A DNA stretch of 41,078 nt from a virus, in IMG/VR virus record IMGVR_UViG_3300044821_000062, positions 1-41,078 of that record; one strand, written 5' to 3'. Positions 2,254-33,050 of this stretch are shown here, piece after piece (positions within the stretch are counted from its first letter, which is position 1; each line of letters starts with the position of its first letter). A model generated the notes under the pieces. The model made no database searches, was not told the DNA's origin, and worked only from the letters and a program-made list of their open reading frames with translations. A program made the translations under genes and the position numbers.

Positions 2254-4140
2254 ATGACAAATCAACGGCGGCTACGAGCCGCACTTTTCGGTTTTGCTCT
2301 ATCGGCTTTCTGCTTGCTGGCTGAAACTCCGCTTCTCTACTACGATGCTCCGCCAGCTTCCCGGAGGTTGGTCTCTTACAAAGTCGTGCGTATCGACCCG
2401 GCCACGAAGTTGATTGAAGGCCCGATCCCTAACGCGAACGTCCACTTCTCTTGCACGGTGCAAGTCTGGTCTGGTGGCCACTTCCATTCAGACGGCGGGC
2501 GCCCGTGCGGCACGTTCGGCCCGACATCGGCGCTGACTGACTACGAAGGCATCGTCACCACGACTTTCTTCACGCCGAACGTTTCCGGCAAGGTAACGAT
2601 AACAGCGCGCGCCGACGTGTACCCGAACTACCCAAGCATCAGCGATGTGGTCATCATTGGCGTCGGAGGATTGAGCGAATTGCCAAATAGCTATTCGTTC
2701 ACTTCTGCCCCATACGATACGAAACACCCGCTTGGGATTGATTTCGTCAAGTCGTTGGTCGGCGCGGAATTCCAAAGTTTTGCGGCGGACTTGCAGGCCA
2801 ACCACAACATCAAGGTCAGCGCCATAAAGGCGTCTCTGATTGGCGGCGGCCTGAATGATACCGGCTCGTTGGTGCCGTGGGAATATGATGGGTTTGGCAA
2901 CCTTCAGGGTCGAGAAATCGACATTGAAGCTCCCAAGGGATCATCGGGATTGGTGAAGAGTAGGGCGCTCGCCTGGGGTTTTCTGCCGGTATCTCAGGGG
3001 ATCGCGAAAGATGGATTCGGCGATGAGTGGCATTTGATCGACAGCACCTTCAACCTGAAGTCTGCCGGTAACGTCAACTTGGCGCTATCCGTAGATCAAC
3101 AGTTATTCGGGGGCACGAGCGATGCTGACTGGATCGCGCAGCCGATGAACCCGGCGTACGCGCGCGACGGAAGCGTGCAACTCAACTTTGTAGGGCTCTC
3201 GCAACCACAGCAGGCGAACATGGGCGCCGCGGTGCAGTACGGTGGAGTTCCAATCGCGTTCGCGACGGGATCGTTTTACGACCCGGCCGGGCTCCAGTGG
3301 GTGCAGGTGTTGACTGCGGCGGCTCCAGACGGAGGCGGGCAACCGTACTGCTTCATTCACTACGATGTCAACGGCAACGGGCTCTGGTTGTACGGCGACA
3401 ATGGCTACTTCGTGGGTCCGGTGACGCCGGGCACGCCATCGAACGTGTTGCAGAATTCGCTATGCGCCATCAACACACAGAATTCATTTGTGACGCTGAA
3501 CCAGGATAGCTCGCTGGTGGAGCTTGCCGTTGCCGTGACTTACAAGTCCGTTCGGACGCTCAACACGTATGCGCACGCCATGAACAACGCGTACGGTGAT
3601 ACCGGGTGGGTGCTTCAGCCTGTTGACGCGCTGTCCACCACGACGACCCCCGCTCTGCCGATGCTGATCCAGCCGGGCGGCTCCGGCACTATCAATGGCG
3701 GAATCAACTTGCCCACTGGATTTGGAATGGTGAGTCCGGATCCTCCCGGTTGGGCTCGGCAGAATTTCGGTTGGGACGAAATCCTCATCGCCGCAGCTCC
3801 AGATGGTGGAGGCCAGCCGTTCTGTTTCGCTCACTTTGATCGGGCGGGCAACGGGCTGTGGATGTATTCGAGCGATGTTGGGTACTTCCTGGGGCCGGTG
3901 GCGCCTGGCGACGCTGATACCAACGTGCTCGATAGCTCCGCGTGCCACATAAACCCGGCTGCGGTCACGTGGAACACCTACACGGATCAGAATCACCCGC
4001 TCGGCGCATTCAAACTCAACGTGGGAATGACCTTCAAGTCGCCGATGGTGGGGCTGAAAAACGTCTACACTCGGCGGCTATCTCAGTTGAATATCGATTC
4101 CGGCTGGGTGCAGTTCGGCGCGCTCAACATCATGCAGTAG
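2254..4140 (+). CDS. Large secreted protein: Ig-like region, degenerate M15-peptidase-like domain, two C-terminal repeats
   Basis: 628 aa with an N-terminal signal peptide (about 1-24). Residues 45-137 look like a bacterial Ig-like fold. Residues 141-265 distantly resemble the zinc D-Ala-D-Ala peptidase (M15/Hedgehog) fold: HPLG, SLIGGGLND, GREID (D223) and DEWH (H260). The first metal His expected three residues before G219 is Asn216, so activity is doubtful. Residues about 351-460 and 510-628 are two diverged copies of one repeat (AAAPDGGGQPxCF, NGLWxY, YFxGPVxPG, TFKS/TYKS, SGWV/TGWV). From memory, this repeat and domain set is common in secreted proteins of Acidobacteriota. It is probably monocistronic: leaderless promoter before, strong terminator after. 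It could be a surface remodeller, an adhesin or an unusual cell-wall enzyme. Confidence 0.7.
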   Translation: MTNQRRLRAALFGFALSAFCLLAETPLLYYDAPPASRRLVSYKVVRIDPATKLIEGPIPNANVHFSCTVQVWSGGHFHSDGGRPCGTFGPTSALTDYEGIVTTTFFTPNVSGKVTITARADVYPNYPSISDVVIIGVGGLSELPNSYSFTSAPYDTKHPLGIDFVKSLVGAEFQSFAADLQANHNIKVSAIKASLIGGGLNDTGSLVPWEYDGFGNLQGREIDIEAPKGSSGLVKSRALAWGFLPVSQGIAKDGFGDEWHLIDSTFNLKSAGNVNLALSVDQQLFGGTSDADWIAQPMNPAYARDGSVQLNFVGLSQPQQANMGAAVQYGGVPIAFATGSFYDPAGLQWVQVLTAAAPDGGGQPYCFIHYDVNGNGLWLYGDNGYFVGPVTPGTPSNVLQNSLCAINTQNSFVTLNQDSSLVELAVAVTYKSVRTLNTYAHAMNNAYGDTGWVLQPVDALSTTTTPALPMLIQPGGSGTINGGINLPTGFGMVSPDPPGWARQNFGWDEILIAAAPDGGGQPFCFAHFDRAGNGLWMYSSDVGYFLGPVAPGDADTNVLDSSACHINPAAVTWNTYTDQNHPLGAFKLNVGMTFKSPMVGLKNVYTRRLSQLNIDSGWVQFGALNIMQ

Positions 4141-4171
4141 CATACACTTCCCCTGTAACTCCTCTCGCTTC

Positions 4172-4201
4172 GGCGCGCCTTCGCGGGCGCGCCCTTTTTT
4201 T
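4172..4201 (+). terminator. Rho-independent terminator
   Basis: A perfect 8-bp GGCGCGCC stem (4172-4179 with 4186-4193), a 6-nt loop and a run of seven T. It ends the transcript of the secreted-protein gene. The next promoter begins immediately after it. Confidence 0.9.
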
Positions 4202-4202
4202 A

Positions 4203-4253
4203 GGTACTTTAGTACCATTCCATTCTGTAGTGCACTTGTAGTAACCTACCACC
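4203..4253 (+). promoter_or_regulatory. Leaderless promoter with palindromic operator, copy B
   Basis: Perfect 6-2-6 palindrome GGTACT-TT-AGTACC (4203-4216), TGTAGT boxes at 4226 and 4237, and a -10-like TAACCT (4242-4247) ending 6 nt before the ATG at 4254. The two TGTAGT boxes sit at the same distance from the start codon as in copy A. No ribosome binding site. It should drive the operon that holds glycosyltransferase and methyltransferase genes. Confidence 0.75.
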
Positions 4254-4640
4254 ATGGTTTATGAACTGCCGAAGATCGGCGAGCCTATTGAGTCGCACGG
4301 GTTGTGCTACGTCTATCACCTTGTTCAAGGTCGAAAAACGCTCGTGTCGGTGTTGGACCCAAACACGCCACGAGAGGAAAGAAACATCTGTCAAGATGCG
4401 GCAACGCCTATGATGGAGCGTCCAATCGTGCAGCCTTTCGACGCGGCTCCGGCGACGTGCGCAACATGCGGCCGGCCGTTTACCCGGATCAAGCTCGATA
4501 TCTGTCCAGGCTGCCATCACGCCGAGAAACAAGAGAAGCGGCAAGCGAGCGCGCGCCGATTTCGGGCGTGGCAGAAGCGCGCAAAGATGGCCGCGGTATT
4601 CGGTTCTCGTCAGGCTCGCGCGGGAGGGGAGAATGCTTGA
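4254..4640 (+). CDS. Hypothetical zinc-ribbon-like protein
   Basis: 128 aa, not recognised. The C-terminal half has two CxxC pairs (CATCGRPF and CPGCHH, about residues 68-88) spaced as in a small zinc ribbon, followed by a basic helix rich in Lys, Arg and Gln that could bind nucleic acid. The ATG lies 6 nt after the -10-like hexamer of promoter B and has no Shine-Dalgarno sequence, so it should be read from a leaderless mRNA. It is the first gene of a long overlapping operon and overlaps the next gene by 8 nt. Confidence 0.65.
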   Translation: MVYELPKIGEPIESHGLCYVYHLVQGRKTLVSVLDPNTPREERNICQDAATPMMERPIVQPFDAAPATCATCGRPFTRIKLDICPGCHHAEKQEKRQASARRFRAWQKRAKMAAVFGSRQARAGGENA

Positions 4641-4818
4641 TTTCGTGATCGATCTGCTAATCCCCGGGTTGGTAATGGCTTGCTGTGTTGGTCTCATGGG
4701 GTACGGAGTATGGGTGGTCTATCAGCAGTACGGCATTGTCGAAGCACTGTGTTTAGCGTTAGTGCAGGCCTGCTGTATAGGCTTTCAGTTATGGATCAAA
4801 GGAAGGTTGAGGTTATGA
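4633..4818 (+). CDS. Small membrane protein, two predicted TM helices (holin-like candidate)
   Basis: 61 aa, almost entirely hydrophobic: one helix at about residues 5-29 and a second at about 36-55, ending in a short basic tail (KGRLRL). The start follows a strong purine-rich site (GGAGGGGAGA). Size, two TM segments and basic tail fit a class II holin, but no endolysin lies next to it, so the holin role is only a suggestion. The stop overlaps the next start (ATGA). Confidence 0.55.
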   Translation: MLDFVIDLLIPGLVMACCVGLMGYGVWVVYQQYGIVEALCLALVQACCIGFQLWIKGRLRL

Positions 4819-5531
4819 GCGCCTGGTTGTGTATTCCGTCGGCTCGCCCGCTCAAGTCGGCTCGCCCGGTGATTCAAGCATGGCTCGCAGAGGGCTACAA
4901 CGTGGCGCTGTGGCGCGAACGCGAGTTCGGCCAGGCGGATTGGCACATACCAATAGATCGTGGCATGGTGCTGACAAAGTTCGATGAGCCTTATCCCGGT
5001 TACGCGAACGCAACCAATTTTCTGATCAGTTTGGTCAGGTTGGCCGATAAAGGAGCCGACTGGTTTGTTATCGGCGGAGACGACGTGTATCCCGACCCGT
5101 TGCGGCCGGCTGAAGAGATCGCGCGCGAGTGCTCCACCTACTTCTCTGGCACGTACGGAGTCATGCAACCGACGGGCGACCGGTGGGGCGAAGACGGGCG
5201 TAACGGAGCCTACATCGATCGCATTTGCGGGTCAGCTTGGATCGGGCGTGGTTTCTCTGAGAGGATTTACGGCGGCAAAGGCCCGCTGTGGCACGAATAC
5301 CGCCACATGTTCGTTGATGAGGAGTTGCAGAATGTGGCGATACGCGAGGGAATGCTCTGGCAACGCCGCGATCTAACTCAACACCATGACCACGCGCTCA
5401 GACGCGGCCGGCGCGAAGAGTTGCCGGAGCACCTGCGGGAGTGGTATAGCTCTGAGCATTGGAACGAAAGTCGAGCGCTGTTTCAGCGCAGAAAGGCGGC
5501 CGGGTTTCCGGCGCATGAGGTGAAAGCATGA
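4815..5531 (+). CDS. Putative glycosyltransferase (GT-A-like)
   Basis: 238 aa from the ATG at 4815, chosen because GGAAGGTTGAGG lies just upstream and it overlaps the previous stop; the frame is open further upstream but that part is the shadow of the membrane-protein gene. The motif FVIGGDDVYPDP (about residue 87) is a DXD-type site. Later segments GSAWIGRGF, FVDEELQN and a final HHDH cluster follow the order of donor site, acidic base and His seen in GT-A enzymes. It is the second of four glycosyltransferase-like genes in this block. Donor and acceptor are unknown. Confidence 0.65.
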   Translation: MSAWLCIPSARPLKSARPVIQAWLAEGYNVALWREREFGQADWHIPIDRGMVLTKFDEPYPGYANATNFLISLVRLADKGADWFVIGGDDVYPDPLRPAEEIARECSTYFSGTYGVMQPTGDRWGEDGRNGAYIDRICGSAWIGRGFSERIYGGKGPLWHEYRHMFVDEELQNVAIREGMLWQRRDLTQHHDHALRRGRREELPEHLREWYSSEHWNESRALFQRRKAAGFPAHEVKA

Positions 5532-5659
5532 AGTCACGGGCTCCGGAGTGGACGGTGATTATCATAGGGCTATTGCTGGTCATTGGCATCGTCGTGTATT
5601 TCGAAAGCACAATGGAATTCGCGGCGAGAATTGACCGGGTGGTGTCCGATCAGCGATGA
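5528..5659 (+). CDS. Small single-pass membrane protein
   Basis: 43 aa: a short charged N-terminus (MKSRAPEW), one strong TM helix (about residues 9-25) and a charged C-terminal tail. ATGA overlap with the gene before and again with the gene after supports a real gene. The topology would suit an accessory lysis or membrane-anchor protein, but nothing shows its function. Confidence 0.55.
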   Translation: MKSRAPEWTVIIIGLLLVIGIVVYFESTMEFAARIDRVVSDQR

Positions 5660-5811
5660 GCGATCCTATCCGCGTCTCAAGCGGGCCTGACGATCCAGTG
5701 CGCTTCGTCAATGGTTCGTGGTGGTATCTGATCTGGGGGCCGTACGAAGACGAGTCGGCGGCGCGCCAAGCGCAAGAGCACGCCGAAATGGAGAAAGCAC
5801 AAAATGGCTGA
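5656..5811 (+). CDS. Small hypothetical protein
   Basis: 51 aa, starting MSDPIRVSSG and containing an aromatic patch (SWWYLIWG). It overlaps its upstream neighbour by ATGA and its downstream neighbour by 8 nt, so it fits the tightly coupled operon. The family is not recognised and no membrane segment or metal motif is seen. Confidence 0.5.
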   Translation: MSDPIRVSSGPDDPVRFVNGSWWYLIWGPYEDESAARQAQEHAEMEKAQNG

Positions 5812-6556
5812 GCCGAAAGTTGTCCTGACAACTGTGGCGCGCGGCGGGTGGTACGCTCGAGCTGTCGCGCGAATGATCGAGCGATTGCATCAGCATCATA
5901 TGGGAGATGTGATGTTGATGGCATGGGTGAACACCTTGCCGCCGAATGCCCAGGTGCTGATCGAGAACGGATACGATTATACGGCGTACGCGGCGAAGTC
6001 GGACGCGCTCTATGCCTGCTGGCAGTTGCAGGCGGCCGATATCGGCATTGTTCTCGATGCGGCGTATTCTCCGGTACGGCATTTCGGTCCTTTGATCGCG
6101 CACATTCAGGAGCACGGGTACTACTTGGGCGCGAACGGATTTCGAGTAGGCGAGTGGTCAACAGACCGGGCACTGAAGTATCTAGGCGTGTCGCGCGAAG
6201 CGGCGATGGGCATCCCGGACGTAGCGAGCGGCTGCGTCGGCGTGGACTTCCGTCATACACTCGGCCGGAAGCTGGCAAACGCATGGGCGGCCGAATGTAA
6301 TCCGTTCACTGTCCCGGGTCCGCATTCCAACATAGCGGCCGGCCCGGAAGCGCTCGCGCTCGCACGGTCAGGCGGTTATCGCAACGTTGGCTTTTGCTCC
6401 GTTGACCCTCGCGTCGCCGGGCATAGGCATGATCAGACCGTGCTATCCGTTGTAGCTCATCTACTGGGCTGCAATGTGCGGGTTGAGCGGCCGAAGTTCT
6501 GCTCTTACTCCGACAAGATCACGCCTGAGACTATCTTCTTGAACCGCGGGCTATGA
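5804..6556 (+). CDS. Putative glycosyltransferase-like protein
   Basis: 250 aa. The order of motifs suggests a nucleotide-sugar-dependent transferase: N-terminal strand KVVLTTVARGG, a segment IVLDAAYSP near residue 82 at the usual place of the metal-binding Asp, and a late GHRHDQTVLS segment (about residue 205) that resembles the D-Q/S base-helix region of several capsule-type transferases. No classical DXD is present, so the call is weaker than for its neighbours. It lies between other transferases and the methyltransferase in one coupled operon and overlaps the methyltransferase start (ATGA). Confidence 0.5.
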   Translation: MAEPKVVLTTVARGGWYARAVARMIERLHQHHMGDVMLMAWVNTLPPNAQVLIENGYDYTAYAAKSDALYACWQLQAADIGIVLDAAYSPVRHFGPLIAHIQEHGYYLGANGFRVGEWSTDRALKYLGVSREAAMGIPDVASGCVGVDFRHTLGRKLANAWAAECNPFTVPGPHSNIAAGPEALALARSGGYRNVGFCSVDPRVAGHRHDQTVLSVVAHLLGCNVRVERPKFCSYSDKITPETIFLNRGL

Positions 6557-7647
6557 CCTACGGTTCCGTGTGTTCGGGAATTGAGGCGGCTACCGTTGCG
6601 TGGTCGCCGTTGGGCTGGACTCCGGCATGGTTTGCAGAGATTGACTCTTATTGTTCGAAACTACTCAAGCATCACTATCCGACCGTAATCAACCATGGCG
6701 ACTTCACGGAAATTACGCAAGAGCAATCAGGCTACATTGACCTTCTCTGCGGAGGGACTCCCTGCCAGTCCTTCTCCGTTGCCGGCAGACGAGGCGGCCT
6801 GGAGGATGCGCGCGGCAACCTGGCCATCGAGTTTTGCCACCTTGCTGGCCGACTGCGGCCTCGGTGGATCGTCTGGGAAAACGTCCCCGGTGTTCTGTCA
6901 TCGAACGGCGGACGGGACTTTGGCTCCATCATCGGGGCGCTGGCGGAACTCGGGTATGGTTGCGCCTGGCGAGTGCTGGACGCTCAGTTCCTCGGAGTGC
7001 CCCAGCGACGCCGTCGCGTCTTCGTTGTCGGACATCTTGGAGACTGGCGCCGTGCCGCGGCGGTACTTCTTGAGCGCGAAAGCCTGTGCCGGGATACTCC
7101 GGCGCGCCGCAAAGCGCGGGAAGAAGTTGCCGGATCTCTTGGCGGCGGCACTGGCGAGCGTGGTTGGTGCAACGACCTTGACCGTTCCGGAGCGTTCGTG
7201 TCCATGAGCCTGAATGCAAAGGGAGGCAGTGGGCGGCTGGATGGTGAGAGCGAAACGTTCGTGGCCCACACTCTGCGAGGCGACGGCTGTGACGCCAGCG
7301 AAGATGGCACCGGACGTGGCACTCCACTCGTGCCGACGGCGGTTAGCGGGACTCTGGCGGTCAGACGTCTGACTCCGCGCGAGTGCGAGCGGCTCCAGGG
7401 ATTTTCCGACGACTACACGCTGATCCCGACCGTCCGAAAACGGCAAGCGGTGAAGGGCGCCAAAGCTGAAAAGTTGCTCGCCTATTACCATCGCACCGAA
7501 CGCGGCCGGCAGCATGTCGAGATGCGCGGCGGCCGGGTGTACGCAACATCGGACTCGCATAGGTACAAAGCTCTCGGGAACACCTGGGCCGTTCCGGTGG
7601 TGCGTTGGATCGGAGAGAGAATTGAGATGGTGGAAAGGATGAAATGA
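6553..7647 (+). CDS. DNA (cytosine-5) methyltransferase
   Basis: Methylates carbon 5 of cytosine in a specific DNA sequence using S-adenosylmethionine. The 364-aa protein carries the family motifs in order: motif I (VCSGIEAATVAW, SAM binding), motif IV (GGTPCQSFSVAG, catalytic Cys71), motif VI (ENVPGV, Glu109), motif VIII (QFLGVPQRRRR), motif IX (RRLTPRECERLQGF) and motif X (YKALGNTWAVPVV). The target recognition region lies between VIII and IX. No restriction enzyme gene is adjacent, so it is an orphan enzyme, probably protecting phage DNA from host restriction or marking it. It overlaps its neighbours on both sides by ATGA. Confidence 0.95.
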   Translation: MTYGSVCSGIEAATVAWSPLGWTPAWFAEIDSYCSKLLKHHYPTVINHGDFTEITQEQSGYIDLLCGGTPCQSFSVAGRRGGLEDARGNLAIEFCHLAGRLRPRWIVWENVPGVLSSNGGRDFGSIIGALAELGYGCAWRVLDAQFLGVPQRRRRVFVVGHLGDWRRAAAVLLERESLCRDTPARRKAREEVAGSLGGGTGERGWCNDLDRSGAFVSMSLNAKGGSGRLDGESETFVAHTLRGDGCDASEDGTGRGTPLVPTAVSGTLAVRRLTPRECERLQGFSDDYTLIPTVRKRQAVKGAKAEKLLAYYHRTERGRQHVEMRGGRVYATSDSHRYKALGNTWAVPVVRWIGERIEMVERMK

Positions 7648-18039: not shown

Positions 18040-18510
18040 TTGAGCAATACGATTGAAATTCCGACCCTCTTAGCGTTGCCGTCAATTGGGTCACAGCTAT
18101 GGTACGGGGATGGAACGTCCCCCGAAAACTGGACTCTCATAACGAACGCGGCGCAATACAAAGGCCTGAGCCTGGGCGCAAAAATGGAAGACGTCACGAA
18201 CAACAACACGAACAATCCGTGGCGCCGCAAGATTCCTACGTTGCTGGATGCTGGCGACATGGCCTTTGACCTGTATTTCATCCCGAACGACGCCGGGCAC
18301 AAGGCCATCGTTGCGCTGTTCACGAACCGTGGATTGCCGACGGCGCCGGGCGTTCCGATTCAGTTCAAGCTGGTTTTCTCGGACGTGGGTCAGACCACTT
18401 GGTACTTCGACGGGTTCATCTCGAAACTGGACCTGTCCGGCGTGATTGATTCGGTGTGGAAATTCTCAGCCATGATCACGGCCGAGGGCGAACCCACCTT
18501 CCCGGCGTAG
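18040..18510 (+). CDS. Major tail tube protein
   Basis: 156 aa from a TTG start with AAGGAG at the right distance. Predicted beta-rich with MEDVTNNNTNNPWRRKIPT and GFISKLDLSG segments typical of tail tube subunits, which stack as hexameric rings around the tape measure. It is followed by a strong terminator, consistent with high expression ended cleanly. Its place between terminator protein and chaperones is canonical. Confidence 0.8.
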   Translation: MSNTIEIPTLLALPSIGSQLWYGDGTSPENWTLITNAAQYKGLSLGAKMEDVTNNNTNNPWRRKIPTLLDAGDMAFDLYFIPNDAGHKAIVALFTNRGLPTAPGVPIQFKLVFSDVGQTTWYFDGFISKLDLSGVIDSVWKFSAMITAEGEPTFPA

Positions 18511-19292: not shown

Positions 19293-22200
19293 ATGGCATC
19301 CGGGAACAACAGCGGAACTGGCGATCTTGACATTCTCATTGGTGGAGACATTTCACCACTCGACGATGCACTTTCGGGTATCAGCGAAAGCGCCCAGGCC
19401 GCGGCCAGCGCGGTCAATGCCGCGCTCGGATCCACCGATGGGGCCGACGCTCTTACCACGAGCGCCACGGCCGCGGCGGGCGCGATTTCGGGCATTGCGC
19501 CCGCCGCTCAGGCGGCCGGATCAGCGGTCGCCGGTGTGGACACGGCGATTACGACCACCACGGGCGACACGGAAGGGCTCACGGCCGCAATCTCAAGTCT
19601 AGGCCAGCGCCTGGACGCGATCAATAACCAACTGACCACGGCGAACTCTTCACTCGCTGACATCGCGGATAGCGAGCAGCGAGTAGCGGAATCATCGCAG
19701 GAATCGGCCGGCGCGCTCGAGAAGGTTTCCGGCGCGCTCGAGACAGTCAAAAGTGTAGCGGAAGCGCTCGCCGCGGTTGCGCTTGCTGAGACGTTGCGGG
19801 AATTTGCGACGGCCGCTATCGAAGCTTACGGTGAGGCTCAACGCGTCGAGACGTCACTCCGGTTGATGAGTGGTTCCGCCGAATCGGCGTCCGAAATCAT
19901 GGAACATCTCGACGAGATGTCCACGAAGCTAGGCATACCGCTGGCGAACCTGGAAGCGGCGGCGCAACGCGCGTCAACGGTGCTTGGAACTGGCGACGGG
20001 CTTACGGCCGCGCTCAACGCCGCGGCGAATGCCAGCGCCGCTACAGGCGGCTCATTTGACAGCGTAGTAAACGCGCTGGACCGCATCCAAACCACGGGCG
20101 CGGTTACCGGCCGACAGTTGATGGCGCTTGGGCTTCAGTGGCAAGACCTTGCTACGACGATGGGCGTTTCGATCGATGAGGCTCAGGCGCGGTTGAAGCG
20201 AGGCGGTCAGGATGCGGTACAGGATGTCCAGGCTGTTGTGGACGCGATCGAGCAAAAGTATGGCGACGCCGCGGCCCAACAGGCGCAAGGAATTCTGTCT
20301 CAGATTCAGCAACTGAAAAACGCCGCAACGCTGGTGATGCAACAAATCGGCGAAGCGATCGCGCCGGCCGTCACCAGTATCGTCACAGCGCTCAAGACAA
20401 CGGTGATTCCGGCAATTCAGGCGGCCGTGGATGCGTTCAAGGCGCTCCCCCCGGGGATTCAGGATGTAATCGTTATTGGCGGAGCGCTGGCGACCGCGCT
20501 TGTGCCGGTTGCGGCCGGGCTCGCCACGTTGGGCTTTGCGATTTCAGGCGTAGAGACATTGCTTGGCGCTCTCGGCGTATCGTTTGGTCAGACGGCAGTT
20601 GCGGCCGGCACGTTTGCTGCGGCCGAAACAGCGGCGACGGCAGCGACGGAAGGTCTGGGCGCCGCAGCGGGAACCGTGGGAACCGGGCTGCTGAGCGGTA
20701 TCGGGGCTGCTATCGCGAGCATCGCGGCGGTGGCGTTACCGTCTCTCGGGGCCGCAGTGCTGGCGACCCGGGATCAGCTGGACGCGTTGAAAGCATCGGC
20801 GGCGAATTTCGACGCCACGCTGAAGGGAGCCACAAATACAGCGATCAACCATACGGCCGCACTGAAGGACATGGAATCCGGCGTCAAAGCGGCGATGGCT
20901 GCGTATAACTCCGGGATCACGATCATTGGTCAGTACTCCGGAGCAACGAAGGATTTCGTCGAGAAGCAACAGGCGCTAGTTCAGGCCGAGAAAGATGCGA
21001 AGCAAACGCTTCTCGATGTGACGGCGGCGCATAACGCCGGGCTCGCTCCGTTGTCTCTGGTGACAGCGGCGACGATAGCTCTCCAGAAAGCGCACGAAGC
21101 GGCGAACCCGGCGATCAAGGCGACAACGCTTTCGTTTGCAGACTTAGCGGCAAATGCGGTAATCACTCAACAGAACGTCGAAGAGTCGCGTAAGACCTTC
21201 CTCCAGACTGAAGCGGCGTTCATCTCCGGGTTTTCATCTCTTGCGGCTTATGATGCGGCCTGGAATCAGTACTCGAAGGATGCAAAAGCGGCCGGTGTTG
21301 TCGCTACCGATGTCACTCACGCGATCATCTCGCAAACGCAGTCAGCCAATGAGTCAATCCAGAAATTGACAGGGTTGATTGATACCTTCGAAACGCTCGA
21401 TAACATCGAGAACAAGAATCTCCAGCAAAGCGTTGCGACGTCGGCGTCATGGAAAGCGGCGCAAGAGCAAGCCAGCAAGTTAGGGCTGACGTTGGTTGAT
21501 GCTGGCGACCATTTGCAGGTTGACTTCACCGACAAGGCGACGAAGGCCGGAACTACAACGGACGCGTTGCGCAAGTACATCGAGAGCCTGTACGGACAGA
21601 CGGATGCCTATACCGTTCTCGTGAACGGCAAGGTCATGCCCGTACTTCAAAGCCTGTCTGATGGGCTCGCCAAGAACATCATTCAGGCCGGCGGCTTTTC
21701 GTCGGCGATGGAAAATGTCACCGACAAGGCGGGCAAGGCGGCCGGACAAATCGAAGTGCTTCGCGGGAGCACTGAAGCATATCAGACGGCCAGCGACGCG
21801 GCATCGGCGTCGATCATGACGGCTACAGGGAAAGTTGAGAGCCAGGCCGAAGCGGTCAAAGCGGTGAACGACGCATGGCTCGCCGCGGCGAAAGCTCAGG
21901 GCTCCTACCTCGAAGTGACGAACGCGGGCGCTGGCGAGATCGATGATGAGACGGGCGCGATTCAAACTCAAACCGAGTCAATCGGCGGCCAGATCAATGC
22001 TGTCAATGAACTCGCTCGGGCCTGGGATCTGGAGCTGGCGGCAAGCGAATCAGCCGCGGCCGGCCCGTCGAAGTCATCGAGCGCGAAAGGCGCCGGTGGA
22101 GTATCAGTGTCGCAACAAAACGTGCTCAGCATGTACGCGATGGCGGGCGCGACTGGTGGTCAGCTTGACGCGCTCGCTCAGGCGATGGGGCTGGTTGTGG

Positions 22201-23111
22201 TGGGTCAGAATCAGTACGCGACTCAGGACTACATCAACAGCCTGAAGCAACCCGGGGGGAACCCGAACGGCACCACGATCAGTAGTGGAGTCACGATCCA
22301 GAAGGGGTATTTCACTCCGACAACTGGGTCTACAAGCTCCTCGAGCACGAGCACGGCGACGGCGGCGACTCCGGTCAGCACGAGCACGGCGACGGCAACC
22401 ACGGCGGCGGCCGGCGCGACCAATGCTGCGCTCTCTTCGCTGGTGGCCACAGAGCAGCAGTACCAGCAGACCTTAAGCGACACCATAGCGGCATACCAGA
22501 CCGGAAACGAGACGCTCGCCGACGTCCAGGCCGCGCTGGCGAACTATCAGGCCGCGATGGATCAGGTCCAGGCCGCGGTGGATGAAACTGCGGCGACAAC
22601 GCAATCGTTATCTCAGGCGACGGGATCCCAGACCACCGCGGCCGATACGCTGGCGACGACTACGGCGGCGACGGCGGCAACCGTCACTGAGGCGGCCATG
22701 AGCATCGGCGACGCGCTCACAGGTACGGCCCAGGCTGCTACAGCCGCGGCGGCGGCAGTCAACACCACCACGGCGGCGCTCGCTGGAATGACGATGGAAG
22801 GATCGTTTGGTAGTGGAACCACGGCGACGGCGATGGCTCCGGATGTCGCCACGTCCGTAACAGCCGGGCTCGCCACGGGGCCGGCTTCGACGTATGGGCT
22901 TGTTCCGGCCAGTGGTCAGGTGATGTCTGGTCTGACTTCGGTGGTAGGATCGGATCTTTCGGCCAGCTCCCAGACGCCGACGGCCCAGGTGACCGTCAAC
23001 GTGTCGGCGGGTACCGTTGTCGGAGCCAACGGGATGCAACAGCTTTCGCAGATGGTCGGAAATCAGATCGTGACTCAGCTTCGACAGGTGACGGGCCTTA
23101 AGATCCCCTAG
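19293..23111 (+). CDS. Tail tape measure protein
   Basis: 1272 aa, the longest gene in the window, placed after the chaperones. The Ala/Thr/Ser-rich helical N-terminus and the region GRQLMALGLQWQDLATTMG at about residue 270 match the tape-measure N-terminal domain. Hydrophobic segments follow around residues 385-475 (for example PPGIQDVIVIGGALATALV), which may cross the host membrane at infection. The C-terminal third is a low-complexity Thr/Ala region. At about 0.15 nm per residue the tail should be near 190 nm long. AGGGG precedes the ATG. A 33-bp unit is duplicated at 22344-22396. Confidence 0.9.
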   Translation: MASGNNSGTGDLDILIGGDISPLDDALSGISESAQAAASAVNAALGSTDGADALTTSATAAAGAISGIAPAAQAAGSAVAGVDTAITTTTGDTEGLTAAISSLGQRLDAINNQLTTANSSLADIADSEQRVAESSQESAGALEKVSGALETVKSVAEALAAVALAETLREFATAAIEAYGEAQRVETSLRLMSGSAESASEIMEHLDEMSTKLGIPLANLEAAAQRASTVLGTGDGLTAALNAAANASAATGGSFDSVVNALDRIQTTGAVTGRQLMALGLQWQDLATTMGVSIDEAQARLKRGGQDAVQDVQAVVDAIEQKYGDAAAQQAQGILSQIQQLKNAATLVMQQIGEAIAPAVTSIVTALKTTVIPAIQAAVDAFKALPPGIQDVIVIGGALATALVPVAAGLATLGFAISGVETLLGALGVSFGQTAVAAGTFAAAETAATAATEGLGAAAGTVGTGLLSGIGAAIASIAAVALPSLGAAVLATRDQLDALKASAANFDATLKGATNTAINHTAALKDMESGVKAAMAAYNSGITIIGQYSGATKDFVEKQQALVQAEKDAKQTLLDVTAAHNAGLAPLSLVTAATIALQKAHEAANPAIKATTLSFADLAANAVITQQNVEESRKTFLQTEAAFISGFSSLAAYDAAWNQYSKDAKAAGVVATDVTHAIISQTQSANESIQKLTGLIDTFETLDNIENKNLQQSVATSASWKAAQEQASKLGLTLVDAGDHLQVDFTDKATKAGTTTDALRKYIESLYGQTDAYTVLVNGKVMPVLQSLSDGLAKNIIQAGGFSSAMENVTDKAGKAAGQIEVLRGSTEAYQTASDAASASIMTATGKVESQAEAVKAVNDAWLAAAKAQGSYLEVTNAGAGEIDDETGAIQTQTESIGGQINAVNELARAWDLELAASESAAAGPSKSSSAKGAGGVSVSQQNVLSMYAMAGATGGQLDALAQAMGLVVVGQNQYATQDYINSLKQPGGNPNGTTISSGVTIQKGYFTPTTGSTSSSSTSTATAATPVSTSTATATTAAAGATNAALSSLVATEQQYQQTLSDTIAAYQTGNETLADVQAALANYQAAMDQVQAAVDETAATTQSLSQATGSQTTAADTLATTTAATAATVTEAAMSIGDALTGTAQAATAAAAAVNTTTAALAGMTMEGSFGSGTTATAMAPDVATSVTAGLATGPASTYGLVPASGQVMSGLTSVVGSDLSASSQTPTAQVTVNVSAGTVVGANGMQQLSQMVGNQIVTQLRQVTGLKIP
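22344..22396 (+). repeat. Short direct repeat in the tape measure gene
   Basis: A 20-nt sequence (22344-22363) is repeated exactly at 22377-22396, a 33-bp period encoding TSTATA-type residues. In-frame units like this can change tail length by slippage. Confidence 0.7.
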
Positions 23112-24013: not shown

Positions 24014-25225
24014 ATGTCGGTATTCGTTGACCAACTTGATCGCATCTCGACAACCCTGTCTGGATCGTATACGGCCGGCGGTTCGTCGCTGTCGCTCTCG
24101 AGCGCGACCGGGTTGCCGTCGGGGGCCTGTTTTTTCTTTCTGATCGTGCAAGCGGAGGGCTCGAATACCGAAGAGGTGTTTCTCGTCACGAACGTCTCAG
24201 GAACCACAGCCACGGTGACGGGCGCCCAAGCCAACACCAGCGCATCCAATCACGCATCCGGAGCTGTGGTAATCGCCTCCATTCTGGCCGCGAATGCGAT
24301 GTATGGCCTAACTCCGGATCTGCTGTCTTTTGAGCATCGTCCATATGGCACTCCGACCAGTTTCAAAACGGAGGTGACGGCGTTCAACCATGGCGCGAGC
24401 GTTGACTTAGTGAACTACTCCGGAGGCCCGGGGTATATGTCGGATTTCTGGTTTAGCGTCACGCTGAACTACTCCGACCTGAACAACATCACCATGACGA
24501 TCACGGCCGATGGAAACACGGTCTTCAGTGATCGCGCGTGCTTGTACTTCGCGGCGGAATATCAGTACAACACGACAGTCTTCGCGTCGCGCTTTATAGG
24601 GGCGAGCAACAATAACTCGAACAACGTCGGCTATTACAACTTCCTGCCTGTTCCGTTTTCGTCCAGCCTTAAAATCACGATCACGAATAACTCGGGATCT
24701 CAGAACGGCTTCTGCTGGTCCACGTTGACGCTACAGTTAGGAGTGCCGAATAGAAGCCCACGCACTCGGCGAATGATTTGTTCAAGCGGGCTACTGACTA
24801 ATCAGACGGTCGATACAGTCATAACCCTTGTCAATGCAACTGGGCTCAACCCGGGTCGGCTCGCTGGCATTTCGATGTCGCTCGACTCGTATCCAAACGG
24901 AGCGAATCCGCCGACAGCTCCGCTCGAGGGGAATTTCAAGTTCTATCTCGATGGCTCCGGTTCTCCAAGCATCGAGACGTCGGGAACAGAGGACTATCCC
25001 CACATGGCGAACTACTTCCAGGGATACAATGCTCCAACGGTTCCCGATTATCTAGGGTTGACGTTCAAAACTTCTGAAACCTGGAACTTCTATCGCTTTC
25101 ACATTCCGGACCCGATCTGTTTTCAGAACGCGCTCAAGGTCACATGGAATTGCGGCGACTCCGGCGAAGTCAATTTCACTGGCGGCGTGCGCGTTGCTTT
25201 CTGCCTCTGGTACTACACTGAGTAG
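24014..25225 (+). CDS. Tail protein with DUF2961/GH172-like glycoside hydrolase domain
   Basis: 403 aa. Residues 1-95 form a phage-type beta adaptor (LSLSSATGLPSG, then HASGAVV). Residues ~107-403 follow the DUF2961 (GH172) pattern in order: GPGYMSDFWFSVT (139-150), YYNFLPVPFSSSLKI (207-221), LEGNFKFYLDG (304-314), SGTEDY (323-328) and YRFHIPDPICF (360-370). Characterised GH172 enzymes are double jelly-roll alpha-furanosidases acting on fructo- or D-arabinofuranosides. As I recall, their two catalytic Glu are 21 residues apart; here E305 and E326 are also 21 apart. It probably attacks a surface glycan during adsorption. GAGAGGTGA precedes the ATG. Confidence 0.75.
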   Translation: MSVFVDQLDRISTTLSGSYTAGGSSLSLSSATGLPSGACFFFLIVQAEGSNTEEVFLVTNVSGTTATVTGAQANTSASNHASGAVVIASILAANAMYGLTPDLLSFEHRPYGTPTSFKTEVTAFNHGASVDLVNYSGGPGYMSDFWFSVTLNYSDLNNITMTITADGNTVFSDRACLYFAAEYQYNTTVFASRFIGASNNNSNNVGYYNFLPVPFSSSLKITITNNSGSQNGFCWSTLTLQLGVPNRSPRTRRMICSSGLLTNQTVDTVITLVNATGLNPGRLAGISMSLDSYPNGANPPTAPLEGNFKFYLDGSGSPSIETSGTEDYPHMANYFQGYNAPTVPDYLGLTFKTSETWNFYRFHIPDPICFQNALKVTWNCGDSGEVNFTGGVRVAFCLWYYTE

Positions 25226-25231
25226 CTCGTC

Positions 25232-27571
25232 ATGAGCCAAACATCGCAAGTCGGAATAGCCCAGGTCGGGGCGGCGCAAGTAGGACAGCGCGGCGTTGTC
25301 AGTGGCGCTCAGACGATCTCGGGAGCCACTATCCCGACAATGGCTTCGTGGCCCACGCCAATTATCGAAGGCGCGCCGCAGACCGTCCACCCATCGATTC
25401 TCGGCCCTAACCGGAACTGGATCAACCCGACTGTCTCCGGACCTATCTCGCCTTCGCCTATCCCATCGCATCAAGCGTGGCCAGTTGCTGACAAGGTGAC
25501 CGTATCGCAAACGGTGTCTCTCGCAACGATCCAAAGCCAGCAGTCATGGCCCACAACTGATCGAGTCGCGCACGTTCAGTTGATTCACGGGACCTGTACT
25601 ATTCCCAGCCAGTCCGCATGGCCGTCTCCGACGATCACCGGCGGCCCGAAGTACCTCGCGGTATATGGTGGGATTCCGCCGCGCCGAAGCTGGCCACAGA
25701 CGTCAAAGGTGACCGGCGGAACGCTGACAAAGGGAGTAACTGCTTACCTGGGTGGAGTTGACATTTCCATCTATCTGGCTGCCACCGATTCGGCGTGCTC
25801 GCTTCAAAGCCAGACTCTCGGACGGTGGAAATTCACGGCTGATCTGGTAGCCGAAGACGGACTGTTGACGCTCAATCCGCAGTTGGGCCAGACCATCGTT
25901 ATCTATGATCACGGGTATAGGGTGTTCATGGGCTGCCTGACTGAAGTCATTTGTGACCGCTACTTGATGACTCGGGATGCGATCGTCTGGCACTTGACCG
26001 CAACAGATAAAAGCGGTATTTGCGATCATCGCATTGTCACTGGAACGACCTATCCGGCCGGCTCCGATGTGATCGGAACAATCAACGCAATTTGCGCGAA
26101 CTATCTCAACGGCGAAGGAATCCTATTGAACGCGATTCCGCCTGTTGGGACGTATGGCGCGTTGTCGTCTGATTTGGTGTGCAATTTTATAACGGTCACG
26201 AGCGCGTTTGACTCCATCGCAAGCGACGCAGGGCTCGTGTGGTGGATTGACTTCTACGGCGTTCTGCATTGGTCTCCATTTGACCAACTTGCGCCGGCTC
26301 CGTTTCAAATCACGGAGGATTCGCTCAACTGGCGCAACGCGCAAGGCAAGCACGGCATCACGGTCACGCGCACCACGACGGACTACTACAACAAACTGTA
26401 CGCCGTCTCCAACCTGAACGTGGTACCGGGCTCAGGATCTGGTGGAACTCCGCCGACAACAGGCGCGGGTAATGTCGAGACATTCAACTGGACGCCGGGC
26501 CAGCCGGGCATCCGAACGAATACCGACTCATCGGGCACGGTATACGCGACGGGCATCATTTGCTCGACGGCTATTTCCTCCATCGCGAGCCTGACCGTCA
26601 ACGGCGTAGCTCAGACTTGCGTGGACTTTGGCGCGTACGCGGGGCAGTCTCCGGCGCCGCCCGATTACCTGTGGTTTTTCACTGGCCCGGCGACAGGCGT
26701 TCCCGGGCCGGGCGCATCACCCGCGGCGCTTCCGCCGACGGGCTCAACCATTGTCATTACCTACCAGCCGTACGTCTCGACATCCTCGAGCATCGCGCAA
26801 TACGGCGACGCGCTGGCGCCCGTCAATCCGTCCAGCGGTCAACTCCTCGGGACGTGTGGCTCCGGCATTTATGAGGGCGTGGTGTCGGTGAAGGACATCT
26901 CATCTCAGGAGTACCTGAATGCGATCGCCGAAAGCGAGTTGAGCCGTATCGGTGGGGTGCCGACGATCATTGATTTCGAGACGGACTTTCCGGGGCTGGT
27001 GCCCGGGCAAGCGCTCAACGTGGATGTCCCATTGTCGGGGGTGTCAAATCTGGCAACGCTCATCACGAGCGTATCGGGGATCTACGTTGCGCCGACGCTG
27101 AAAGATGGCGGCTCGTTCCGCTGGCAGGTGCAAAGTCGCTCCAACCTGGACCCCGGGAACTGGGTCAAATGGTATGAGCGGCTCATCTCGCGAACTCTGA
27201 ACCCGTTGCCGATCCTTCAGTATGAGCAGGCTACCTTCGTGCTCGGAGCGGGCTCTACGCTCAGCAGTGGCGTCAACCTGACGAACCCTTATATCGTAGG
27301 GCGCACGGGGCAAGTCGTTACGCTGATGGCCGCGGCGGCAACTCCGCCAACAGGCCAGAGCTTGACTCTCCAGATTTCGATAAACGGATCGCCGAACACA
27401 ACGCTCATGGTGACCATTCCGGCCGGCGCGACCAATCTTCAAGTGGTGAACATCCCGAAATCGGCGGGGCTCTATCTCTTCGCTCAGGATCTGCTGAATG
27501 TGACGGCGTTCTACAGCGGAGGCGGTACGAAGGCCACAGCGGTCACCGTGGCGCTTCGTTGGGCGATGTAG
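25232..27571 (+). CDS. Large tail hub/tip protein with N-terminal WP repeats
   Basis: 779 aa. Residues ~30-165 hold about six degenerate repeats built on IPSxxxWPxxxxV (for example IPSHQAWPVADKV, IQSQQSWPTTDRV, IPSQSAWP). A beta-rich middle (GGVDISIYLAATDS, FMGCLTEVICDRY) resembles the barrel domains of tail hub proteins, with NLNVVPGSGSGG and later Ig-like parts. The C-terminal ~130 residues look like a separate beta domain. Place and size fit the central hub or baseplate protein that carries receptor-binding parts. It ends 29 nt inside the convergent minus-strand gene, with no terminator seen. Confidence 0.7.
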   Translation: MSQTSQVGIAQVGAAQVGQRGVVSGAQTISGATIPTMASWPTPIIEGAPQTVHPSILGPNRNWINPTVSGPISPSPIPSHQAWPVADKVTVSQTVSLATIQSQQSWPTTDRVAHVQLIHGTCTIPSQSAWPSPTITGGPKYLAVYGGIPPRRSWPQTSKVTGGTLTKGVTAYLGGVDISIYLAATDSACSLQSQTLGRWKFTADLVAEDGLLTLNPQLGQTIVIYDHGYRVFMGCLTEVICDRYLMTRDAIVWHLTATDKSGICDHRIVTGTTYPAGSDVIGTINAICANYLNGEGILLNAIPPVGTYGALSSDLVCNFITVTSAFDSIASDAGLVWWIDFYGVLHWSPFDQLAPAPFQITEDSLNWRNAQGKHGITVTRTTTDYYNKLYAVSNLNVVPGSGSGGTPPTTGAGNVETFNWTPGQPGIRTNTDSSGTVYATGIICSTAISSIASLTVNGVAQTCVDFGAYAGQSPAPPDYLWFFTGPATGVPGPGASPAALPPTGSTIVITYQPYVSTSSSIAQYGDALAPVNPSSGQLLGTCGSGIYEGVVSVKDISSQEYLNAIAESELSRIGGVPTIIDFETDFPGLVPGQALNVDVPLSGVSNLATLITSVSGIYVAPTLKDGGSFRWQVQSRSNLDPGNWVKWYERLISRTLNPLPILQYEQATFVLGAGSTLSSGVNLTNPYIVGRTGQVVTLMAAAATPPTGQSLTLQISINGSPNTTLMVTIPAGATNLQVVNIPKSAGLYLFAQDLLNVTAFYSGGGTKATAVTVALRWAM

Positions 27572-29870: not shown

Positions 29871-31052
29871 CTAATATGCATAGTTTCCGCCTCCGCATTC
29901 ATACGGCTGCGGAGTCAGGCTGGTCAACTTCTCAATCCAGATCTGAGTGGCGTACACCCGCGCCGTTTTCAGCGCGCGGATTCCCCATGAGCCATTTGTG
30001 ATCGCGGCATCAATCCAGGTGGCGAAGGTGTCCGGATCTACCGCGGCGAGGCTTTGGTAGCTCAGATAGCCGGGCCAGGCTTCGCCGAAAACGTTCGGAA
30101 CGGGGGTAACAAGGTGCCCCAGGTCGAGCGCGTGGATGCCGAATCGGCCTTGATAAAGCAGCGTGATGATTTCGTCTCCGGCTGGCGGCCGGCAGGTTGC
30201 GTTCACGGAAACGGCCATGACCTTCCCGAAGCACGGAGACGGCTCAAAAACCATCAACTGATCGGCGTTGCCTGTCCCCGCGCCGGGCGGATAGATGTAG
30301 GTGACATCACCGTCGGGGCCTTGCGTATGGTCACCGCTTTCGGTGTCATCTTCGCGTACCTGATACCAGCGGCGCGTCCCGGTTTTCGGCGTCCACACGG
30401 CGTTATCATCGGCTTGACTGCGGAGTGAGTTGATGCGCACTCGGCCGAGGAAATTATCGTATCCGTCTGTGTGCTGGCCATCCCAGATCACATAGTTATC
30501 GATCTGGAACACGGCCGAACCGAGGTACTGAATCCGCAGGTTGATGGTGTCGGGATATCCTCCGGGAATCGCGACTCGGCCGATAGCTGCGGAAACGCCG
30601 TTGATCCGCAGTTCAAAGGCTCCGCCGGCCGAAACGAGCGTGAACTCGATGGTGTACCACGTGTTCGACAACAACGCGATGCTCGATGTTGCGGCGACGT
30701 GGCCTTGATAGTCCAGCACGTTCATTTTGTTGTCGGCGCGCGTTTGGAGCGATACGATAATTTCGGCCGGGTGCGCTGAGTCCCAGCATTGCCACCAAAT
30801 GATGTTCGGCGGAAGCGTCGGCGGCCCATCAAAATACCAATCGAGATGGAATCCCCACGTTGCCTGATAGTCGAATTGCGCGGCAAAGTTGACATCGCCG
30901 AAACCGGTATTGGTCAGGCCCAAGCAGTAGCCGGAACCATCGCGACCAACTGGCATCGGGCCACCCGCGCCGATGCTCTGAGCGAAAGCGTTCCACTGTA
31001 GCTTTGCTCCACCGAACGACACCACGTCAAAACCCGCCAACTTTCGCAACAT
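29871..31052 (-). CDS. Lectin-like (concanavalin/LamG-type) structural protein
   Basis: 393 aa. Residues ~35-195 look like a concanavalin-type beta sandwich: DYQATWGFHLDWYFDG, the NTWYTIEFTLV strand, FELRINGVSAAIG and a final FQIDNYVIWDG. A beta-rich C-terminal half follows (GRVRINSLRSQADD, then RRWYQVREDD). Proteins of this type are common among phage fibre and tail-surface proteins that bind glycans. It is on the minus strand, unlike other structural genes, with its own predicted promoter: the ATG lies 6 nt after CATAAT. The palindrome of the divergent promoter E lies just upstream of that hexamer and overlaps it by one base. Confidence 0.65.
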   Translation of the reverse strand: MLRKLAGFDVVSFGGAKLQWNAFAQSIGAGGPMPVGRDGSGYCLGLTNTGFGDVNFAAQFDYQATWGFHLDWYFDGPPTLPPNIIWWQCWDSAHPAEIIVSLQTRADNKMNVLDYQGHVAATSSIALLSNTWYTIEFTLVSAGGAFELRINGVSAAIGRVAIPGGYPDTINLRIQYLGSAVFQIDNYVIWDGQHTDGYDNFLGRVRINSLRSQADDNAVWTPKTGTRRWYQVREDDTESGDHTQGPDGDVTYIYPPGAGTGNADQLMVFEPSPCFGKVMAVSVNATCRPPAGDEIITLLYQGRFGIHALDLGHLVTPVPNVFGEAWPGYLSYQSLAAVDPDTFATWIDAAITNGSWGIRALKTARVYATQIWIEKLTSLTPQPYECGGGNYAY

Positions 31053-31864: not shown

Positions 31865-32046
31865 CCCACTGGAAGCGCGATGTCCCGTGTCCAGACGTGA
31901 GGCCGGGCGACGAGGAGACGGAAATACAAAGCCTGTATGATCTCAACATCCTGAAACTGAATTGCTCGACGTGTTCCAATGCGTTTTTATATGAGGCGAA
32001 AGCGGAGGGCGAACCACGGAGGATTCAGAAGGTGGATGGAAAATGA
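31861..32046 (+). CDS. Small hypothetical protein
   Basis: 61 aa, with one CSTC pair in [17 protein letters not shown] and a Cys near the N-terminus. Not recognised. It overlaps both neighbours by 4 nt, within the same operon. Confidence 0.5.
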
Positions 32047-33050
32047 TCAGGCGCCGCTTGAACCACATTGGGGCCTGGGTGCTCGCCGGGCTCATTTTTG
32101 CCGTGGAGCTTGCTGGCCTCGCGCGCGCCCAGACTTTGCCGTGCGTGCTGACGATCTCGCCCGGGATCGGCGGCGCGCCCGTGGTGGGATGCACTCCGCC
32201 GACGCCAGGCCCGGCCGGCAAAGACGGGGCCGCGGGGCCGCAAGGCCCGCAGGGTATTCCTGGGCCGGCGGGACCTGCGGGCGCGCCGGGCGCTTCTATG
32301 TCATCTATGTCAGCATCGGTAGCCGTTGGCGCTCCGTGGGTCACCCTTAGCGCAATGCTGGGACCGTTCAACTCGCTCCAGATTACGGCGCCAATGAACG
32401 TCACGGATTGGGAACCATGCGCGAACTTGCCGCCCGATGTTCTGGCCTTGCGGAGCAACTCCTACCAGAATCAGAAGTTTGATGGGATCTGGTGCGCTGC
32501 TCTCAAGAGGGCGGATGGTTCGATCGTCACGCTTTCCTCGCTCTCCGGCGCAGGCGCCGTGGGTCCGCAAGGCCCGATGGGGACACAAGGTCCGCCCGGG
32601 AAAGACGGCGCGCCGGGCGCGATAGGAGCACAAGGCCCGGCCGGCGCCCAAGGTCCCATCGGTGCAACGGGTCCGCAAGGTCCAGCAGGCCCGCAGGGGC
32701 CGGCCGGAACTCCGGGGACATCGGCGGGTAGCGCCGTCGCCAATTGCCCCATGGTTGAGGTGTGGACGTCGTACGGCGGAACTCAATCGTACGAGCTGAA
32801 ATGGTTCCCGGCCTACACAACGAACATCCCGCGCGTGACCACCACACCAGCGGCATTTATGGGATACGTCGGCCCGGCCGTATACATCAATGGGCAACTA
32901 CAAACGCCCGGGGTGGATTACACGATTTCCATCGCGACCGCGCCGAAGCTGCTAGCTACGGTAACGTTTATCTCTCAGGTGAACGCTGGCGACTATATAA
33001 CGTTTCGGTATACGGTCACTACCTGTTCTCAGCCACCAACTTACGACTGA
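32043..33050 (+). CDS. Secreted collagen-like protein
   Basis: 335 aa. A signal peptide (about 1-29, cleavage in ARAQT) is followed by two Gly-X-Y tracts: residues 56-85 (10 triplets) and 174-227 (18 triplets, with two GKD triplets). Between them lies a globular ~85-residue domain, and a ~105-residue beta-rich domain follows ([12 protein letters not shown], then [10 protein letters not shown]). Gly-X-Y tracts in phages usually build trimeric fibres, but the export signal and its place in a small-gene operon suggest an exported protein rather than a normal tail fibre. Trimerisation and surface location are inference. Confidence 0.75.

Follow-up and report, generated by a model that had tools for sequence, protein, structure and literature searches.

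Tail enzymes known so far belong to a limited set of folds, and typical phage tail depolymerases are endo-acting. The characterised GH172 enzymes are exo-acting on terminal furanosides. GH172 proteins form trimers with active sites at the interfaces (PMC8605356, PMC8812541, PMC10509167). In alphaFFase1, the roles of acid/base and nucleophile have been proposed for E270 and E291, both probed by mutation; E270, E291 and D292 are essential or nearly so (PMC8605356). Tyr187 is an active-site residue provided by the neighbouring protomer: Y187F is active, Y187A is inactive (PMC8605356). According to a 2022 analysis, DUF2961 homologues are present in each of the three domains "but not viruses", with no virus-specific genes in the vicinity of DUF2961 genes (PMC8812541). 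This statement formed part of the reasoning about how double-jelly-roll capsid proteins arose (PMC8812541). Full-text searches of open-access journal papers returned no report of a phage GH172/DUF2961 protein.

The window, i.e. the whole stretch of DNA analysed here, is the 41,078-nt IMG/VR record IMGVR_UViG_3300044821_000062 and belongs to an uncultured tailed phage. Its main features are given in the table below. The contig starts inside terL (positions 1-1060; 350 aa vs 454 aa in the sister phage) and its genes follow a circular permutation of the sister's order; the record therefore represents nearly a whole genome of ~41-43 kb. The GC content is 56-63% in 2-kb windows. A gene at 6553-7647 (+) has strong PHROG matches both to DNA methyltransferase and to a primase-annotated family.

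Features of the window. Positions are those of the window; equivalent residues are those of alphaFFase1.
Feature	Positions	Strand	Basis
Major tail protein	18040-18510		PHROG
Tape measure protein	19293..23111	+	Pfam TMP_3 (E 6.2e-10, just under cut-off); PHROG tape measure
phrog_644 gene, conserved upstream phage gene	23471..24010	+	PHROG (E 4.8e-40); 84% aa identity in sister
403-aa tail fibre/spike protein with C-terminal DUF2961 (GH172-like)	24014..25225	+	ORF, Pfam, Foldseek
N-terminal tail adaptor domain, aa 1-95	24014..24298	+	PHROG tail fibre (E 1.4e-7); sister phage identity
Double jelly-roll GH172-like domain (predicted), aa ~112-403	24347..25222	+	AlphaFold2, Foldseek
W235 codon: position of Y187', aromatic kept	24716..24718	+	Alignments
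A302 codon: position of W267 (-1/+1 subsite), Trp lost	24917..24919	+	Alignment
E305 codon: equivalent of acid/base E270	24926..24928	+	Alignments
E326-D327 codons: equivalents of nucleophile E291 and of D292	24989..24994	+	Alignments
N333 codon: position of W298, aromatic lost, Y334 next	25010..25012	+	Alignment
Downstream conserved gene, probable tail hub/baseplate protein	25232..27571	+	Role inferred from position

The open reading frame of the 403-aa protein begins with ATG, has a plausible Shine-Dalgarno sequence (GGAGAGGTGAACCATG) and is separated from the preceding gene by 3 bases. A sequence-only reading had assigned its C-terminal part to DUF2961 on the basis of five motifs, all of which are present in the translation, and the assignment is borne out by Pfam: PF11175 (DUF2961) matches aa 178-384 (E 1.9e-24, 87 bits). 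The gathering cut-off of this family being 27 bits, the match is not due to chance. An NCBIfam search with the protein gave no match. Among PDB sequences, the sole phmmer match below 1e-3 is alphaFFase1 (7v1v; E 8.6e-6), over the catalytic stretch. The AlphaFold2 model, built on an alignment of 52 related sequences from the window and the fetched loci, is confident for aa ~112-403 (pLDDT mostly 75-95) and of low confidence for the first ~110 residues (adaptor part). The double jelly roll foreseen in the sequence-only reading is found in the predicted structure of aa 112-403: the best PDB matches by Foldseek are 8ic8, 7v1v, 8ah3 and 4kq7 (E 4e-16 to 2e-14), the best seven being chains of four solved GH172 proteins. 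The next matches are the jelly-roll capsid proteins of SPV1, PM2, STIV, PRD1 and FLiP. In a viral structure library, the best match is UPI001E6B8B39 (BFVD), an unnamed 367-aa protein (E 2.9e-12); another viral-labelled protein with a GH172-like predicted fold therefore exists. Membership of DUF2961/GH172 is thus confirmed and solid at the level of sequence and predicted fold.

The acid/base Glu, the nucleophile Glu and the adjacent Asp of GH172 are all present (E305, E326 and D327). The two Glu are those that had been singled out for lying 21 residues apart, and they align with E270 and E291 of alphaFFase1; phmmer places E305 on E270 of 7v1v and the GTEDY motif on E291. The columns of E305, E326 and D327 are invariant in the 51 other sequences of the alignment (51/51 in each case). 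W235 aligns with Tyr187 of alphaFFase1, where the mutants on record are Phe and Ala only. At the -1/+1 subsite, Trp267 and Trp298 have given way to A302 and N333. These two Trp are not taken as defining for GH172, because 6 of the 51 aligned relatives have another residue at the Trp267 column (Trp in 45/51) and Tyr is common at the Trp298 column. One position after the latter, an aromatic residue is found in both the 403-aa protein (Y334) and a second phage copy described below, L055 (Trp). Twenty-six columns are conserved at a level of at least 95% in 49 cellular relatives; 19 of them are kept in the 403-aa protein and likewise 19/26 in L055, whereas the overall cellular consensus is matched at only 81 and 87 of 332 positions, respectively, which indicates that the catalytic core is held and that the rest has diverged. 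Several conserved residues of jelly roll 1 are altered. As judged from the alignment, the catalytic core is selectively kept and the sugar-contact surface is changed. Given the loss of W267 and W298, the sugar specificity is probably new; alternatively, the domain may only bind.

The N-terminal ~95 residues had been proposed to be a phage tail adaptor, and the data agree: residues 12-88 make up the adaptor, of which 12-87 match PHROG tail-fibre/virion proteins (best E 1.4e-7), and this part is common to the sister phage. A tblastn search of GenBank phages with the adaptor alone gave no match. The adaptor is also related to three tandem fibre genes of another uncultured phage, L142. These paralogous genes (IMGVR_UViG_3300022663_000001, 3857-6950) encode an adaptor of the same type followed by lectin-like C-termini. 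The gene of the 403-aa protein lies between the tape measure and phrog_644 genes on one side and the probable hub gene on the other. The capsid homologues of this phage correspond to 27 IMG/VR loci. The closest sister is IMGVR_UViG_3300044821_000049, with a capsid 84% identical; it keeps both flanking genes, the hub gene with 80% aa identity, and homologues of the hub gene follow the same slot in other relatives. The slot protein of this sister has an adaptor 43% identical to that of the 403-aa protein and an unrelated C-terminus, whose low-confidence model resembles ConA-like lectins and alginate lyases. In more distant sisters, two proteins encoded in the same slot reach a beta-helix family (PF13229; E 2.3e-7 and 6.8e-12). 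DUF2961 was found in none of 18 sister phage records. Fixed flanks with unrelated C-termini in sisters are the usual pattern of a receptor-binding/tailspike slot with an exchanged glycan module, and the 403-aa protein combines an N-terminal virion adaptor with a tail-tip position and an exchangeable C-terminus. The locus is a swappable receptor-binding/tailspike slot of a well-understood kind, with an unusual domain in it. Two other genes of the window may encode tail proteins. The product of the one at 32043-33050 (+), far from the tail gene run, is 335 aa long, contains collagen triple-helix repeats (PF01391, E 1.5e-12) and has PHROG tail-fibre matches; it could be a second fibre. The one at 29871-31052 (-) belongs to PHROG 2448, a family found directly after the hub gene in the relative L042 (9964-11016), which hints at another minor tail or lectin-like protein.

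The reading that we favour, and hold to be on balance the probable one, is that the 403-aa protein is a GH172 spike, probably trimeric and anchored by its adaptor, which binds a terminal furanoside of a host glycan and removes it by retaining catalysis. In its favour are the DUF2961 and fold matches, the alignment of E305, E326 and D327 with residues probed by mutagenesis, the conservation of the catalytic core, the adaptor common to the sister phage, the beta-helix proteins in the slot of more distant sisters, and the location of another GH172 gene among tail genes in L056/L057, described below. Its trimeric state, location in the virion, activity and substrate are what we infer. The N-terminal ~95 residues would fix the protein at the tail tip, and the C-terminal double jelly roll would probably form a trimer as in cellular GH172, with active sites between neighbouring subunits, an architecture that suits a trimeric spike. 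The glycan on the host surface would carry the target, a terminal furanoside resembling alpha-D-fructo- or arabino-furanose, and its cleavage would follow a retaining mechanism in which E305 would act as acid/base and E326 as nucleophile. The spike would recognise or trim the receptor in the manner of other tailspikes. Known GH172 enzymes being exo-acting, the spike may trim or recognise the ends of side chains rather than cut a polymer backbone. With this domain, the phage would probably grip or trim an unusual furanose sugar of the host. The replacement of W267 and W298, the long branch of odd composition in the tree, the exo action of known GH172 and the low confidence of the adaptor part of the model count against this reading.

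The strongest competing explanation, a serious one even if rather unlikely, is that the GH172 fold has been co-opted as a lectin whose pocket binds a sugar without cleaving it. The loss of the W267 and W298 equivalents, the changes of conserved residues in jelly roll 1 and the possible ConA-like domain (low-confidence model) in the slot of the closest sister agree with such a binder, but both Glu and the Asp are kept, even in the very divergent copy of L055, and loss of the catalytic pair would be expected in a protein that only binds.

It is very unlikely that the protein acts as a depolymerase of mycobacterial D-arabinan and so points to a host among mycobacteria or their relatives, as the sequence-only reading had suggested. 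GH172 exo-D-arabinofuranosidases do act on arabinogalactan (PMC10115798, PMC10509167), and relatives of the upstream phrog_644 gene in mycobacteriophages reach 54% identity; however, relatives of this gene also occur in Pseudomonas phages (~52% identity) and in Caulobacter phages (441 records matched in all). The domain falls apart from Nocardia GH172 in the tree, and the capsid relatives indicate no host: the nearest cultured one is a Methanoculleus virus (~31% identity), followed at 21-26% by phages of Streptomyces, Curtobacterium, Arthrobacter and Stenotrophomonas. For portal and capsid together, the closest cultured relatives are around 31% identity or below, the Methanoculleus virus being the best. 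The capsid gene was searched in 1091 sampled genomes of three phyla and was found in none of 396 Actinomycetota, 398 Pseudomonadota and 297 Acidobacteriota (search without positive control). No tRNA genes were found in the window. With such remote capsid and portal relatives and empty genome searches, the D-arabinan idea is left unsupported, i.e. improbable rather than refuted. A cellular metabolic passenger gene or an assembly chimera, conceivable in that carbohydrate-use loci of cells often contain GH172 genes (PMC8812541), which also occur in plasmid loci, is hardly credible here, as the domain is fused in one open frame to a tail adaptor, tightly spaced in the tail gene run and located at the exact slot of spikes or fibres in relatives.

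A profile-style scan of IMG/VR revealed two further phage types with DUF2961. L055 (8.2 kb, with terminase, portal, protease, capsid and connector genes) encodes a 454-aa protein with a fused C-terminal DUF2961 (E 8.1e-15), 26% identical to the 403-aa protein and carrying the same Glu/Glu-Asp set. In L056/L057, DUF2961 (E 1.3e-78) is encoded by a stand-alone gene (342 aa) flanked by a Dit-like gene and a tail-protein gene. No close relatives of the 403-aa protein were found in IMG/VR, and scans with the pair that it forms with L055, or with L055 alone, gave no further phage copy. Two matches to a GTGTEDYF DNA pattern in IMG/VR were chance matches and not DUF2961. MT838830.1 (L002, "Bacteriophage sp." in GenBank), which matches the 403-aa protein, has beta-lactamase-like and ATPase genes beside its GH172 gene; it looks like bacterial DNA and is therefore not counted as a phage copy. 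Three similar MT83xxxx records were also matched, so the phage collection may hold cellular contigs. In the tree, the 403-aa protein and L055 group together (support 100/99) on very long branches, that of the 403-aa protein being of odd composition. They form a deep branch that is not closest to the Nocardia GH172 clade. L057 is nested with Bacillota genes, alongside the mislabelled L002 and an Oscillospiraceae gene that has an ordinary cellular neighbourhood. A single clade of all three phage copies is disfavoured but not rejected (p-AU 0.063), long branches making this test uncertain. Two independent captures of GH172 by phages are the simplest and likely reading of these sequences; long-branch attraction is possible. 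The proposal that the 403-aa protein and L055 represent a deep, phage-specific GH172 subfamily, employed as a module of the virion and having a new specificity for furanosides, is a tentative one, a little short of probable. If true, a fold thought to be ancestral to double-jelly-roll capsids would also have entered the particles of tailed phages without losing its catalytic core, and GH172 would have been recruited at least once more, independently, in the Bacillota-type phage L056/L057.

In view of the 403-aa protein, the published claim that DUF2961 is found in cells "but not viruses" (PMC8812541) needs to be qualified. With a GH172 domain, the tail enzymes would gain a furanose-specific fold, one that would point to hosts with unusual furanose decorations; the protein offers a self-contained domain with two predicted catalytic residues. 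Compared with the known GH172 (alphaFFase1 BBDE_2040, ExoMA1, DgGH172c and BACUNI_00161), it has the same double jelly roll (predicted), Glu pair and adjacent Asp, as well as YRxHxxDP and GTEDY-type motifs. It differs from the characterised members by its fusion with a phage tail adaptor, the loss of substrate-contact Trp and an identity of ~25%, and it lacks the long C-terminal helix of alphaFFase1. Proteins resembling beta-helix tailspike depolymerases occupy the same gene slot in distant sister phages, but the glycan-active fold is here a GH172 double jelly roll, and known GH172 are exo-acting. Double-jelly-roll capsid proteins share the fold (Foldseek E 3.6e-5 to 4e-4), whereas the 403-aa protein is a tail protein and the phage has a separate major capsid gene of the Phage_capsid_4 type. 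The GH183 (DUF4185) endo-D-arabinanase of Gordonia phage GMA6 is a phage-encoded D-arabinan-active enzyme (PMC10115798); it belongs to a different family with a different fold, and its phage has a known host.
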